A DNA stretch of 29,026 nt from a virus. The notes beneath the pieces were generated by a model. It saw only the letters and a program-made list of their open reading frames with translations. It had not been told where the DNA came from and made no database searches. The stretch's first letter is position 1. The number at the start of each line of letters is the position of its first letter. The stretch lies in the IMG/VR virus record IMGVR_UViG_3300008117_000763, positions 1 through 29,026 of that record. One strand, 5' to 3'. Below, piece after piece: positions 4,070 through 13,591 of this stretch. The translations under genes were made by a program, and so were the position numbers.

Positions 4070-4969
4070 TTAATTCTTAATTTTTAATTTCCAATTATAA
4101 GTATCTTCTAACCAATCACAAATTTCTCTTATAGTCTTATCACCCATATTCCTTATACAATAAAGATCATGTTTACTATAAGATAGCAAGTCTTCAAGCT
4201 TTTCAATCTCTATACTTTTTAACCCATTAAGAGCTCTTACAGATAAATCAAAATCTATAATAGATTTATCCAAGTCTTTAAGATCATATCCATATTTAAT
4301 AAAATGTTGAACAGCATCTTGAGACAAATAATCTTTAGCTTCTTTGTTTTCTTTATTTCTTAAAAACTTATGGTATAATTCTGTATTTTGTTTTTTAAGT
4401 AACTCATTTTCAGTTTTATAAGCTAGTTCATTAGGCCATTCAGCAAACATTTTTTTAAGACTATAAATCTTACTAAGTACTCTTCTATGAGCTTTATTAA
4501 TCATATCATTTGCTCTAACAACACCTACACCTTCTTCATAAGCAATTTCTTCTACTGATAGATTTTGTACAAGCAACATTTCTAATAATCTGGATTCTCT
4601 ATTTGTACAAAACTCCTTAGATAAATCTACCATTAGCTTATTAAATATGTTATGCTTAAATACTAATGATTTGTTATACTTAATATTGTATCCAAATATT
4701 TCTTGAACTTCATCTACAAAATAATAAGCTTTAGATCCCCTACTACTTTTGTTTAATTCACCTGTAGTACAGAAATAAGATATTTTATTTTTTTGTTTCA
4801 GATTTCTTAAATGGCTCTGAGGAATTTGATATTCCTCCACCAACTGTTTTTCAGATATTACATCTCTTTTTGCAATTTCTTCAGACAGTTCTTTATTTGC
4901 TAGTATTTGCTTAACAGTTCTTATGTTAGCAATATTCAATTTTTTAAGTAATACTTCTGTAGTTACCAT
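4070..4969 (-). CDS. Putative transcription factor: MerR-like HTH, sigma-region-4-like HTH and RNA polymerase alpha-CTD-like domain
   Basis: A 299-residue protein from the ATG at 4969; the frame stays open upstream only to a TTG. Residues about 37-92 resemble a MerR/HTH_17-type DNA-binding domain ending YYFVDEVQEIFG. Residues about 124-168 match sigma region 4 (RESRLLEMLLVQNLSVEEIA, then a recognition-helix-like segment and HRRVLSKI). Residues about 238-290 match the C-terminal domain of the RNA polymerase alpha subunit: DLSVRALNGLKSIEIEKLEDLL and IRNMGDKTIREI. The Arg and Asn of VRALN (245, 248) and the G.K of GDKT (276, 278) correspond to alpha-CTD UP-element-binding residues. Role inferred: a phage regulator that binds promoter DNA and/or host polymerase. 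It has no sigma region 2. Confidence 0.85.
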   Translation of the reverse strand: MVTTEVLLKKLNIANIRTVKQILANKELSEEIAKRDVISEKQLVEEYQIPQSHLRNLKQKNKISYFCTTGELNKSSRGSKAYYFVDEVQEIFGYNIKYNKSLVFKHNIFNKLMVDLSKEFCTNRESRLLEMLLVQNLSVEEIAYEEGVGVVRANDMINKAHRRVLSKIYSLKKMFAEWPNELAYKTENELLKKQNTELYHKFLRNKENKEAKDYLSQDAVQHFIKYGYDLKDLDKSIIDFDLSVRALNGLKSIEIEKLEDLLSYSKHDLYCIRNMGDKTIREICDWLEDTYNWKLKIKN

Positions 4970-5019
4970 ATTAATCAATATTTCTATAAATAATACTGAT
5001 GATGACTGTATAAATACAA

Positions 5020-5115
5020 TCAATCATCCCAGCCATGATAGTCTTCATCTCTTAATTTATAAATTATTAAACCTGCAATTACAATTACTATAACTGCTCC
5101 TATTAAAAATTCCAT
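5020..5115 (-). CDS. Very small membrane protein (31 aa)
   Basis: Reads MEFLIGAVIVIVIAGLIIYK and then a charged tail LRDEDYHGWDD. It is one transmembrane helix (residues about 3-19) with an acidic cytoplasmic-looking end. The ATG overlaps the preceding stop by one base (TAATG), the coupling used throughout this operon, which supports reality despite the length. Function unknown. Small single-pass phage proteins often act on host membrane proteins, but nothing here shows that. Confidence 0.65.
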   Translation of the reverse strand: MEFLIGAVIVIVIAGLIIYKLRDEDYHGWDD

Positions 5116-6488: not shown

Positions 6489-7355
6489 TTAAAAAATATA
6501 TCTAATTGTATTCCAAGGAATATGCTCATCATGTAATTCAGTCCACTGTTTAATATAATCTGTTTTCCTGTTGTGTTCATACCTGATATTCTTACCACCA
6601 TACTGAGAAGTTTTAGTTTCTTGTATTTTGGGTACCCAAAGTAACTCTTCTCCTGGAAGTTTATGCTCTAGATTATACAGATGTTTCTGCTCATTATGAG
6701 TAAGAAATATTACTTCAGCTTTGACAGCATCATTATTCCAACTATTAAAATGAGCATGTCTATTAATCAAATGAAATAAAAACTCATATTCAGTTAACCA
6801 ATTGTCATGAACTATAACGGGACTAAAGTTAAGATGCACTTCATAACCAGCATCAATAAATCTTGGTACAGCATTTAATCTTAAATCAATTGGACTAGTA
6901 TTAGGTTCAAGTATTTTTCTCCATTTCTCCGGCATTAGACTAAATCTTATTCTAATTTTACCTTCTGGATTAAGTTCAAGCAAATCTGCATTTACATACT
7001 TAGTAGCAAATGAACCCATAGCAAGAGGATGTTCTCTAAAAAACTTAAAGATTGTCTTCCAGTCATGATACTTAGCATGCAGAGCAAAGTCTTCATTACA
7101 GGAAATATCATAAGTTACATACTCTCCTGTCTGATTTGGTTTCTCTACTGTAGAAAAATAAGCATGTGAGTTAATTTCTGTTAGGATATCCATAGTATTT
7201 GTAGCTACAGATAATCCTTCCGGCTTATGTCTTTTCATATAACAGTAAGAACAGTTATACAAACAGCCATGACCAAAGGAGGGACTGATAAAATCAGTAC
7301 TCCTCCCACTTGGTCTAATGATCATAGATTTTCTAGTAACTTTCTCAATTACCAT
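6489..7355 (-). CDS. Radical SAM enzyme, spore photoproduct lyase (SPL) family
   Basis: A 288-residue protein whose [4Fe-4S] motif is CLYNCSYCY (C31, C35, C38) inside FISPSFGHGCLYNCSYCYMK, the characteristic SPS..hGC...C.YCY opening of the SPL family. Further family-like features are the TYDISCNEDFALHA segment (about 91-104) and the conserved beta-barrel strand regions. SPL enzymes use S-adenosylmethionine to reverse the spore photoproduct thymine lesion. In a phage the role could be repair of UV damage or another DNA or small-molecule reaction. The start is ATG 7355, two codons inside a GTG-initiated extension; either overlaps the upstream stop. The family call is good; the substrate is unknown. 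Confidence 0.85.
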   Translation of the reverse strand: MVIEKVTRKSMIIRPSGRSTDFISPSFGHGCLYNCSYCYMKRHKPEGLSVATNTMDILTEINSHAYFSTVEKPNQTGEYVTYDISCNEDFALHAKYHDWKTIFKFFREHPLAMGSFATKYVNADLLELNPEGKIRIRFSLMPEKWRKILEPNTSPIDLRLNAVPRFIDAGYEVHLNFSPVIVHDNWLTEYEFLFHLINRHAHFNSWNNDAVKAEVIFLTHNEQKHLYNLEHKLPGEELLWVPKIQETKTSQYGGKNIRYEHNRKTDYIKQWTELHDEHIPWNTIRYIF

Positions 7356-7747
7356 AACCACTCTATCACTTCAGGATGAAAATGTGCAAAGAAAAGATAT
7401 ACAATCAATCCTATAGATATAATACTATCTAATCTTTTAAATTCTACTAATAATGTCCAATAGTGTTTTCTTCTAAGATATCTATTAATAGGAGACTGAA
7501 TTAATGAAAATATAAATATTATTAAATAAATATACCATAAATCACTAATAGCCATACCAAGAAGTAAAAAGACTAAATAGATTATACCAAAACAACCCAC
7601 AGAAAAGGAAATAGCTTTATCATTATCTGATCTATCATCCTTTTTAATTCTATACATAGCCCTAACATAAGACTTTGCTTTTATACATGTAATAAATTCA
7701 TAAATAAATGCTGCACCTAACATAAGTGCTAATAATACTTCTTTCAT
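7349..7747 (-). CDS. Four-helix integral membrane protein (132 aa)
   Basis: Hydrophobic segments lie near residues 4-20, 48-66, 71-88 and 108-124, separated by a basic-acidic loop (RIKKDDRSDNDK). This predicts a polytopic inner-membrane protein. Its ATG overlaps the stop of another small membrane protein (ATGA), and it runs directly into the radical SAM gene. No transporter motif is visible. Immunity to superinfection or membrane remodelling are possible roles, but neither is shown. Confidence 0.82.
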   Translation of the reverse strand: MKEVLLALMLGAAFIYEFITCIKAKSYVRAMYRIKKDDRSDNDKAISFSVGCFGIIYLVFLLLGMAISDLWYIYLIIFIFSLIQSPINRYLRRKHYWTLLVEFKRLDSIISIGLIVYLFFAHFHPEVIEWLW

Positions 7748-7953: not shown

Positions 7954-8202
7954 TTATTGATCCCCTTTTTCTTTTCTTGCTTCACCATAGTGCGAGGAGA
8001 ACTTTTTGGAGACTTGTTCAGTCTTTCCAATCTCTCCTGTATTTTCTTGTTGATACTGTTGTAGTCTGATTCTTTCTTGGTGTTTTTCATATTCTTCCCA
8101 ATTATACATTTCTAATTCTTTCATTCTAGCAACATCTGCTACGGTCATACCTTCTGGTATTCCCCCATTTTCTTCCATAATCTGAATACAGACTTCTTTC
8201 AT
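7954..8202 (-). CDS. Unknown charged protein (82 aa)
   Basis: From the ATG at 8202 (ATGA overlap with the upstream stop) it reads MKEVCIQIMEENGGIPEGMT and onward. A second ATG nine bases upstream (8211, adding MGR) is equally in frame. The sequence is helical, rich in Glu, Gln and Lys, with a Gln-rich stretch (RLQQYQQEN) and a disordered C-terminus. No motif recognised. Confidence 0.75.
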   Translation of the reverse strand: MKEVCIQIMEENGGIPEGMTVADVARMKELEMYNWEEYEKHQERIRLQQYQQENTGEIGKTEQVSKKFSSHYGEARKEKGDQ

Positions 8203-8639
8203 TCTTCCCATATCTTAATACTTTTTTCTAAGAATAATTTAATTGTGGTTCTAATATCATCATGACCTTTTATATTTCCAATTGCTTTTAATTTATTATA
8301 AAACTTTCTGTCAAGATCAAGTTCAATTCTTTTTGACCTATGACTACCAATTTCATTAGGTTCAATTACACTAAAATCAAATGGAAACATTTGAGCATAG
8401 ACATAAACATTTTGCATATAAGACTTATCAGCATGTAGCTGTAATGCAAGTTTTTTGTTGTAGTTTACTTTATCTCTCTTAAAACCAGTAAGACCAGCAA
8501 TAGTGTTTTCAGTTAATAGGAATCTATAAGCTAAAATAGCTACTAAATAACTTCTTTGATCAACTAATACTCTATGTCTTGACTTATTAGGAATTTTTAA
8601 AAGAGCTTGTAACACATCATCTTTAGTGTACTCTTCCAT
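8199..8639 (-). CDS. DNA-binding protein: DnaA-domain-IV-like HTH plus RHH-like C-terminus
   Basis: Residues about 29-70 (RSYLVAILAYRFLLTENTIA, then GLTGFKRDKVNYNKKLAL) match the plan of DnaA domain IV / TrpR-like helix-turn-helix: an Arg-Ser-Tyr helix, an acidic turn with 'T..TIA', then a FKRDKV recognition segment like the GRDHSTV signature. Residues about 103-142 (KRIELDLDRKFYNKLKAI, then an FLEKSI helix) have the strand-helix-helix look of ribbon-helix-helix domains. Combined, this is probably a sequence-specific DNA-binding protein, either an origin-binding or a transcription factor. It begins a tightly overlapped set (ATGA into 7954-8202). The assignment is by eye. Confidence 0.8.
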   Translation of the reverse strand: MEEYTKDDVLQALLKIPNKSRHRVLVDQRSYLVAILAYRFLLTENTIAGLTGFKRDKVNYNKKLALQLHADKSYMQNVYVYAQMFPFDFSVIEPNEIGSHRSKRIELDLDRKFYNKLKAIGNIKGHDDIRTTIKLFLEKSIKIWEE

Positions 8640-8651
8640 AAATATTTTGAA

Positions 8652-8927
8652 TTAAACTAATTCTAAATCTGCAGGAATCTCTTCTGATTTTAATTCTTCA
8701 GCAACTTGTACTAATGTTTCTATTGGTAAAAATCTTTCAGCATTATAATATTCATATGGAAAAGACTGTTCTGATAGTTGTACTTCTTTAAGTCTATATC
8801 CTAGTTTGTTATTCTGAAGATTCATTTTAGCAATCTCAACTACAGTATATACTTGACCTTCAGCAATCCACTCCATTGGAGAAATTCTTTTTGGTTTGTT
8901 ACTGTCATCAATACATATCACCTGCAT
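8652..8927 (-). CDS. Small conserved phage protein with a CID...EGxxYTV motif (91 aa)
   Basis: Reads QVICIDDSNKPKR, WIAEGQVYTVVEI, LGYRLKEV and AERFLPI in order. This set of short beta strands (V.CID, EG..YTV, GY.L.E, RF.PI) recurs in small uncharacterised proteins across phages, probably an SH3-like or small beta-barrel fold. An acidic tail (EELKSEEIPADLELV) ends it. It overlaps the ClpS-like gene by 20 bases. Function unknown. Confidence 0.85.
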   Translation of the reverse strand: MQVICIDDSNKPKRISPMEWIAEGQVYTVVEIAKMNLQNNKLGYRLKEVQLSEQSFPYEYYNAERFLPIETLVQVAEELKSEEIPADLELV

Positions 8928-9162
8928 ATTCTTTAATTTCTGATTTTATATCTAGATCATCAAATGTACCTTTTATCTCAAACATTTCCATGTAATCTCC
9001 TGATTTTACAGTACATTTTCCGTTATTATGAGCTACAATAGCACACTGCTCAGCTTGTAATCTTTCATGATTACAAATTCTAATCAAGCATGCCATTATA
9101 TAATCATAAGAATTTACATCATCATTATAAATGACTAGCTTATGTGTTTTGTAATCTTCCAT
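8908..9162 (-). CDS. clpS: ClpS-like Clp protease adaptor (phage N-degron adaptor)
   Basis: An 84-residue ClpS core from the ATG at 9162; a TTG-initiated extension is rejected. The signature HKLVIYNDDVNSYDYIMACL (residues 7-26) contains NDD (13-15), which in ClpS binds the N-terminal amino group of N-degrons. AEQCAIVAHNNGKCTVKSG follows, with the second amino-contacting His (45). The gatekeeper position (Met in E. coli) is Tyr 19. ClpS delivers proteins with Leu, Phe, Tyr or Trp N-termini to ClpAP, and Bacteroidota ClpS proteins carry very similar motifs. The phage copy could steer host ClpA(C)P toward or away from chosen substrates. The gene is 4 bases after the SF2 helicase. Family strong; role inferred. 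Confidence 0.9.
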   Translation of the reverse strand: MEDYKTHKLVIYNDDVNSYDYIMACLIRICNHERLQAEQCAIVAHNNGKCTVKSGDYMEMFEIKGTFDDLDIKSEIKEYAGDMY

Positions 9163-9166
9163 ACTA

Positions 9167-10261
9167 CTAATATAATGAAATATTAAAATCTTTCCAAATA
9201 ATTTTACTTTGGTCAAAGCTCTCTAGTGCTTCTTTTACCCATTTCTCATCTACTGTATCCATATAACATAGTATGTGAACAATAGCTTTATCATCTGGAT
9301 TTAACCTTAATAATCTACCAATTCTTTGACTTGCTTTTCTCTCATTACCATATGCATGCATAATAATACCTTGTTTAAGATTAGGAATATTTACACCTTC
9401 ATTCAACTGTAGTACAGTTGATAGTTGTGTAATCTCACCATCTTTAAACTTTCTTAGATTCTCTTCAGAATCTGGATTATTACTATGATAACTATGAGAG
9501 CATAACTTATCAGCTTGCTTTTGAGTATTAGCAAATATGATACATTTGGAGTTAATACTTTTCATCAGTAAAGTTGTATACTTTTCTTTTGTAGGGTACT
9601 CCATTAATGCTTTCATTCTCATAACTCTGAGCATGTGAACACTTCCAGATCCTACATCCAATCTTCTAGACCAATAGGTATAATTGTCATATTCTGAAGT
9701 AACAAAAGACTTACCTCTCATTTCAGCAACATAACCTTTATCTCTATTGAGCTCTAACTGATGGACAATGATCTGATAATCATTTAGTATTCCATTTTCT
9801 ATAGCATCATCTGCTTTGAATGTATAAACTACTGGACAAAACTCATGCACTAATCTACCTTTCTCTGAATTACTATATTTAGGAGGAGTCCCGGTTAAAC
9901 CAAGAATCCTCCCATTATATAGTTCTAAAAATGATCTATGAGAATCAAGTAAACTATGCATTTCATCCAAGTAGATAACATCATAATCATTAGGATTGTG
10001 CTTATTTAAACTAAGATAAGTTGTAAACACCATTCTTTCTAATAAAGCATCTTTACCAAACTTTACAGATTCATCTTTCCATGATTGAATAATAGCTTTT
10101 TTTGGTGCTACTATAAGAACTTTCATTAATGGTGTAGTATTCTTTTCCATATGTATAAGACCAACTAAAGTTTTACCTACACCTGTACCAAGAACTACAC
10201 TACATCTGCTCTTATTCTCTGTAGCTTTTAACGCTTCTGCTTGGATTTCATCTTTTGTCAT
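9167..10261 (-). CDS. SF2 DNA helicase (UvsW-like/type III restriction-like)
   Basis: A 364-residue superfamily 2 helicase. Motif I is GTGVGKT (25-31), motif Ia is VLIVAPKKAI (48-57), motif II is DEMH (99-102), motif III is LTGTPP (122-127), and motif VI is QRIGRLLR (312-319) after a QLNEGVNIP segment. It is compact, with no extra domains. Phage enzymes of this kind remodel branched DNA or R-loops during replication and recombination. It starts ATG 10261 with ATGA overlap to the upstream 59-aa gene. The family is secure; UvsW-like function is inference. Confidence 0.92.
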   Translation of the reverse strand: MTKDEIQAEALKATENKSRCSVVLGTGVGKTLVGLIHMEKNTTPLMKVLIVAPKKAIIQSWKDESVKFGKDALLERMVFTTYLSLNKHNPNDYDVIYLDEMHSLLDSHRSFLELYNGRILGLTGTPPKYSNSEKGRLVHEFCPVVYTFKADDAIENGILNDYQIIVHQLELNRDKGYVAEMRGKSFVTSEYDNYTYWSRRLDVGSGSVHMLRVMRMKALMEYPTKEKYTTLLMKSINSKCIIFANTQKQADKLCSHSYHSNNPDSEENLRKFKDGEITQLSTVLQLNEGVNIPNLKQGIIMHAYGNERKASQRIGRLLRLNPDDKAIVHILCYMDTVDEKWVKEALESFDQSKIIWKDFNISLY

Positions 10262-13485: not shown

Positions 13486-13517
13486 AATTATAAATTTAAA
13501 TTAAACAATAAAACTAG

Positions 13518-13591
13518 TAGTCCTGCTTGGATTCGAACCAAGGACCTACTGCTTAGAAGGCAGTTGCTCTATCCACCTGAGCTACAGGACT
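13518..13591 (-). tRNA. tRNA-Arg (anticodon UCU)
   Basis: Folds fully: acceptor AGTCCTG/CAGGACT, D stem GCTC/GAGC, anticodon stem ACTGC/GCAGT with loop CTTCTAA (anticodon TCT), a 5-base variable loop, T stem CTTGG/CCAAG with TTCGAAT, and discriminator A. No CCA is encoded. It reads AGA codons, which are the dominant Arg codon in this AT-rich phage, so it probably supplements the host pool. It sits in the minus operon between protein genes, so it may be processed from the mRNA. Confidence 0.97.

Follow-up and report, generated by a model that had tools for sequence, protein, structure and literature searches.

The stretch of DNA analyzed here (the window) comes from a linear virus record of 29 kb (29,026 nucleotides), which represents a fragment. 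On its minus strand, an SF2 helicase gene (9167..10261; ResIII/Helicase_C, phrog_16), a homologue of gp067 of Cellulophaga phage phi14:2, is located 5′ of a clpS gene (8908..9162) with a gap of 4 nt. The clpS gene is followed on its 3′ side by a gene for a 91-aa protein with no assigned function (8652..8927, minus strand), and then by a gene for a 146-aa protein (8199..8639, minus strand) that is often conserved in the cluster. A tRNA-Arg(TCT) gene was also located on the minus strand (13517-13591). The clpS ORF starts with ATG and encodes 84 aa followed by a stop, at exactly the coordinates given in the original prediction. Its last 20 nt (8908..8927, minus strand), encoding the tail ...EYAGDMY, overlap the start of the 91-aa gene, which is probably translationally coupled to clpS. 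A longer ORF with a TTG start at 9216 (102 aa) was rejected, as it lies inside the helicase gene, is not conserved, and is interrupted by stops in relatives; an in-frame stop was found just 5′ of the clpS ATG in the relative L012. The model of the 91-aa protein was all-β with a C-terminal helix and gave weak SH3-like matches only. The conserved acidic end of this protein, ADLELV or ADLELI, comes after a variable linker and resembles a partner-binding C-terminal tip.

The single Pfam match of the 84-aa protein was PF02617 (ClpS), with an E-value of 3.5e-14 and a score of 52.8 bits, where the curated cut-off is 23, indicating that the likeness to ClpS did not arise by chance. An AlphaFold (AF2) model of the window ClpS was obtained with a pLDDT of 90.4, and ranks 1–38 of a Foldseek search of the PDB with this protein were all ClpS structures. 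VIA-align against the PDB gave Z values of 13–15 for ClpS, 9.8 for the ClpS-like domain of Ubr1, and 9.5 for the C-terminal domain of L7/L12, of which the latter two are structural cousins of ClpS. Since the nearest PDB entries are all ClpS, the searches did not reveal another fold, the outcome that would have spoken against the original prediction. The residues N13-D14-D15 and H45 were aligned with N34-D35-D36 and H66 of E. coli ClpS, in agreement with the complete core, containing an NDD motif and a later His, that had been read from the sequence. The window gene was thus confirmed to encode a phage ClpS. Pairwise dN/dS values of 0.05–0.24 against 13 relatives indicate purifying selection on this gene.

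The first 20 phage relatives were gathered by homology before a motif scan. For the latter, the motif QAEQC-x4-H-x2-GKC was used identically for bacterial and viral collections, which gave at least about 120 matches each; it fixes the His equivalent to H66 in these large sets and is neutral as to the N-terminus. A scan of genome contigs with alignment A1 gave no match, while the motif scan found matches. The cellular reference was composed of 113 intact ClpS among the matches listed, sampled with a Bacteroidota-like motif. The viral ClpS among the matches listed showed a bimodal distribution, consisting of 68 loci with 7–12 residues before the Asn of NDD (63 of them with exactly 12), hereafter called the short type, and 44 loci with 23–38. 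The short type comprised 53 distinct proteins, and 65 entered the site comparison. The alignments were short (72 columns), and the N-terminal extension (NTE) and docking contacts were assigned on them from E. coli. The locus L163, from a record named "Acinetobacter phage MD-2021a", has the order argC-clpS-clpA and looks like bacterial DNA.

The residues known from ClpS to bind the α-amino group of the N-degron were retained. All 20 phage proteins of the homology-based first set carried equivalents of N34, D35, and H66, and N13, D14, and H45 were invariant in alignment A2. The gatekeeper position, which is M40 in E. coli and Phe in Bacteroidota ClpS, is occupied by Tyr19 (codon 9106..9108, minus strand). 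This Tyr, on which the original prediction had focused, is indeed present, but it does not distinguish the protein, as the short clade possesses Tyr in 34, Phe in 28, His in 2, and Val in 1 of the 65 proteins among the matches listed, and Leptospira ClpS1 has a natural Tyr gatekeeper (PMC12493166). It was therefore discarded as a defining trait. Phe was found at this position in 113/113 Bacteroidota cellular ClpS and in all NTE-keeping phage proteins among the matches listed. Beside the H66-equivalent His, the position of V65 was changed to Ala (Ala44-His45, codons 9028..9033, minus strand). Ala occurred here in 20/20 proteins of the first phage set, compared with Val or Ile in 112 of the 113 cellular ClpS among the matches listed. 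The change was not regarded as fixed, because the larger short set among the matches listed contained Ala in 46, Thr in 10, and Val in 9 proteins. Judged from these residues, the pocket is kept but reshaped.

The main feature of the protein is instead the loss of the NTE together with a rebuilt helix α3, both of which had been missed. The codon of Asn13 (9124..9126, minus strand), which corresponds to E. coli N34 and is the first residue of the α-amino-binding NDD motif, is preceded by 12 residues, compared with 24–77 (median 26) in 113/113 cellular ClpS among the matches listed. Six cellular N-termini that seemed short were explained by the end of a contig, stretches of N, a different start codon, or a stop in frame upstream. 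Among the matches listed, the reading frame of 37/53 distinct short proteins runs into an upstream stop before a length of 23 codons is attained, and 23 codons are unreachable with any ATG, GTG, or TTG start in 38/53. Structural alignment with 3o1f placed phage residue 5 on E. coli residue 26, leaving approximately 4 NTE residues versus 25. The window ClpS hence has no disordered NTE for delivery. In E. coli, the pore loops of ClpA grip the NTE and pull ClpS, which releases the substrate, and ClpS-assisted degradation by E. coli ClpA is inhibited when entry of the NTE is blocked (PMC9663308). The NTE of Bacteroidota cellular ClpS, about 18 residues by alignment, is already shorter than that of E. 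coli; the need for the NTE is known from E. coli ClpA, and a Bacteroidota partner may tolerate a shorter one. NTE-truncated ClpS, in the work of Hou in 2008, Roman-Hernandez in 2011, and Rivera-Rivera in 2014, reportedly binds but does not deliver. E. coli ClpS with a truncated NTE, a laboratory construct, has the same anatomy as the phage protein, namely a core without NTE, and the phage protein resembles a natural counterpart of this construct; the latter differs in being engineered and in having its E. coli pocket and docking residues intact.

The second altered element, helix α3 (residues 57–69; 8956..8994, minus strand; secondary structure taken from the model), is the helix that docks ClpS to ClpA or ClpC. 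E79, E82, and K84 of E. coli ClpS contact ClpA (PMC12493166). The corresponding positions are M58, F61, and I63 in the window ClpS, and L/M, F/L, and I/L across the clade among the matches listed. The charged α3 contacts with the ClpA N-domain are accordingly absent from the window ClpS, in which a displaced E59/E62/K64 triad that may still allow docking is present. A one-residue register shift of α3 that would keep E-x-x-E-x-K was disfavoured, because the buried positions (44, 47, and 54 counted from the Asn) align without a gap. Compared with cellular ClpS and with the phage ClpS that keep the NTE, this helix is among the parts most changed; at the docking positions, the NTE-keeping phage ClpS are intermediate. 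The altered α3 could dock by new contacts, or the protein could no longer meet ClpC at all. The C-terminal tail, EY(A/E)(G/S)xM(Y/H), was also considered as a gained functional element. This reading was set aside because the tail coincides with the 20-nt overlap in most relatives (about 41 of 53 distinct ones among the matches listed) and because the tail is short in some relatives whose overlap differs; in L225, L273, and L188, the tail is kept without an adjacent overlap, which leaves some probability for such a role.

Relatives of 112 and 120 kb were found to have homologues of the major capsid protein (MCP), portal, terminase, primase, polymerase, UDG, and SF2 helicase in common with Cellulophaga phage phi14:2, which belongs to Steigviridae of Crassvirales. 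Compared with phi14:2, the relatives G002 and G007 exhibited the features of Crassvirales, namely MCP, portal, terminase, RNAP-region protein, primase, and UDG homologues, together with replication and structural arms. The window, a fragment without the MCP region, has 25 ORFs in common with G002, and UDG and SF2 in common with phi14:2. The homologues common with phi14:2 and the 25 ORFs matching G002 point to an environmental crAss-like (Crassvirales) lineage for the window, of which the host is presumably Bacteroidota. In phi14:2, a gene for dATP/dGTP diphosphohydrolase follows the helicase. No ClpS was detected by tblastn (E ≤ 10) in cr- and Cellulophaga phage records, nor in any annotated crAss-like record, and no paper combining ClpS with crAss-like phages was found among the openly accessible papers searched.

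The SF2 helicase gene was located 5′ of clpS in 53/54 short-type viral loci with enough upstream sequence among the matches listed. ClpS homologues thus stand beside SF2 helicases in other phages, as had been proposed for checking, and the predicted setting is supported in that clpS adjoins this helicase within the genome half devoted to replication. The 91-aa gene was located 3′ of clpS in 64/68 of the short-type loci listed. The identities of ClpS and helicase to those of the window were 95% and 80% for L004, and 59% and 86% for L021. Such mosaic histories, as read from these identities, suggest recombination between the adjacent genes. The ClpS of L219 (G007) is only about 50% identical to the window ClpS, while the capsid protein of G007 is 94% identical to that of G002, which indicates that clpS diverges, by evolution or by exchange, far more quickly than the gene for the capsid protein.

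A tree including cellular ClpS gathered the 20 first-found phage relatives in one clade (100/98) with a stem of 0.7. When the NTE and tail columns were removed, 42/43 short proteins from among the matches listed again formed one clade (100/98), which was nested in NTE-bearing crAss-like ClpS (95/82) and apart from cellular ClpS (97/91). The closest cellular sequences sampled, with a Bacteroidota-like motif, were those of Bacteroidota, and the phage ClpS formed a group of their own. A recent acquisition from the host, which such a tree was meant to examine, is contradicted by this single phage clade with its stem and by its nesting among NTE-bearing phage ClpS. The NTE-keeping ClpS are also found behind this SF2 helicase in 16/34 loci with room among the matches listed, and only 2–3 changes of NTE state are needed on the helicase tree. 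The capsid proteins of two NTE-keeping phages, G020 and G024 (with the ClpS L252 and L238), are 77–78% identical to that of the short-type phage G002. The simplest history would be that a full-length ClpS was acquired long ago and later lost its NTE in one main event, and these observations are best explained by a full-length ancestor already linked to the phage SF2 helicase. L226 and Vibrio phage 2.275.O look like separate NTE losses, the Vibrio case by annotated sequence. The ClpS of this Vibrio phage (L158), which lies outside Crassvirales, has 12 residues before NDD in that annotated sequence.

Comparison with known systems delimits what is new here. Bacteroidota cellular ClpS (the type of Flavobacteriia, Cytophagia, and Chitinophagia, with QAEQCxxxxHxxGKC) shares with the phage protein the N/D/H residues, an aromatic gatekeeper, and the QAEQC and GKC motifs, at about 32–44% identity. 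It differs in having an NTE (at least 24 residues before the Asn), a Phe gatekeeper, charged or polar α3 docking positions, and no C-terminal tail. The NTE-keeping crAss-like ClpS (for example L252, L238, and L201) lie 3′ of the same SF2 helicase as the short type, but have 23–32 residues before the Asn, a Phe gatekeeper, and a more host-like α3. Leptospira ClpS1 resembles the window ClpS in its Tyr gatekeeper and in an aliphatic residue at the K84 contact, while it is a cellular protein with a 22-residue NTE and no pocket His (PMC12493166). A phage-encoded ClpS as such, as predicted, is real but is no novelty, as ClpS has been described in jumbo phages and taken to feed host ClpAP (PMC7824862, PMC6102473). 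The ClpS domains encoded by jumbo phages (PA5oct, Atu_ph07, SCTP-2, Phosso, and uncultured phages of ~640 kb) have a long NTE, with about 25–29 residues before the motif, and these phages are not crAss-like; most jumbo-phage ClpS examined keep the NTE. The jumbo phage Atu_ph07 encodes its own Clp partners (PMC6102473). The proteins named "ClpS" in L160 (GAP32) and L161 (Kaldavass) are about 180 aa long and have a ClpS-like C-terminal part without NDD. New are the occurrence of ClpS in a crAss-like lineage and the natural loss, throughout a clade, of the element used for delivery, together with altered docking residues. Until now, phage ClpS had been regarded as one more adaptor that supplies host ClpAP. 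A clade that has the pocket without the delivery element, beside close kin that keep the NTE, constitutes a natural experiment that can tell which ClpS parts are useful to a phage. It makes testable whether the N-degron pathway of bacteria is shut down by phages, and which proteins with processed N-termini are important in infection.

Clp_N, ClpP, and Aat were found in none of the seven phage records examined, which are mostly fragments. In the Bacteroidota genomes with this ClpS type, Clp_N and ClpP were present in 10/10 and Aat in 7/10. As far as the phage records show, ClpS must therefore act on host machinery or outside it. The interference with the host N-degron pathway suggested originally is plausible in general terms, but ordinary delivery to ClpA/ClpC becomes less likely, and antagonism more likely, given the lost NTE and the rebuilt α3. 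We speculate, with a probability of about 0.5, that this protein is an N-recognin uncoupled from delivery that acts as a decoy or shield in the host pathway. It would bind proteins with bulky hydrophobic N-termini via the conserved N/D/H pocket, and, with no NTE for the unfoldase pore to pull and an altered docking helix, would not pass them on. If the core binds N-degrons while offering nothing to pull on, it should retain its substrates and compete, so that the phage ClpS may shield N-degron proteins as a decoy or competitor and possibly occupy the N-domain of the unfoldase. The host ClpS–ClpC(A)P pathway would then be damped during infection, presumably to the benefit of the phage. If ClpC is not met, the occupancy half of this model is weakened, while the shielding half stays intact.

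The decoy or shield is favoured over two other functional readings. The phage ClpS could still be an active adaptor that delivers to host ClpC(A)P by an NTE-independent route with a specificity shifted by the Tyr gatekeeper and the V65-to-Ala change, so that chosen host proteins are degraded faster during infection. This role was proposed for jumbo-phage ClpS (PMC7824862), and is consistent with a pocket that is kept with changed lining residues and with the host machine present in Bacteroidota; we nevertheless regard it as doubtful, because the protein lacks the NTE, which the pore engages in E. coli, and has hydrophobic residues in place of the known docking charges, and because retention of the NTE was possible, as seen from the related phages that have it. 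Ranked below it, and in our judgment unlikely, is a re-purposed N-recognin core, in which the new hydrophobic face of α3 binds another partner, such as the helicase, a host factor, or the 91-aa protein translated along with ClpS, and proteins with exposed N-degrons are brought to this partner by the pocket without involvement of ClpC. This idea fits the extensive change of α3 noted above, the conserved SF2 neighbour, and the fact that clpS overlaps the 91-aa gene by 20 nt in most relatives, but overlap and neighbourhood are also expected from compact phage genomes, and the mosaic clpS/helicase histories of L004 and L021 argue against tight co-evolution with the helicase. That the small gene, having lost its extension, is a degenerate or neutral relic of a host gene is highly improbable in view of the purifying selection, its maintenance in a clade that comprises 53 or more distinct proteins, the invariant pocket residues, and the confidently modeled fold.

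Two further genes of the window were noticed. A 317-aa protein encoded at 4070-5023 (minus strand) matches PF03118, the RNA polymerase alpha C-terminal domain, with 60 bits; this domain is preceded by a weak sigma-factor-like stretch, and the protein is a putative phage alpha-CTD fusion. The gene at 6489-7361 (minus strand) encodes a radical-SAM protein that matches the spore photoproduct lyase family (TIGR03886) with 302 bits, short of the cut-off of 438; it is found in many relatives and is possibly a UV-repair enzyme.
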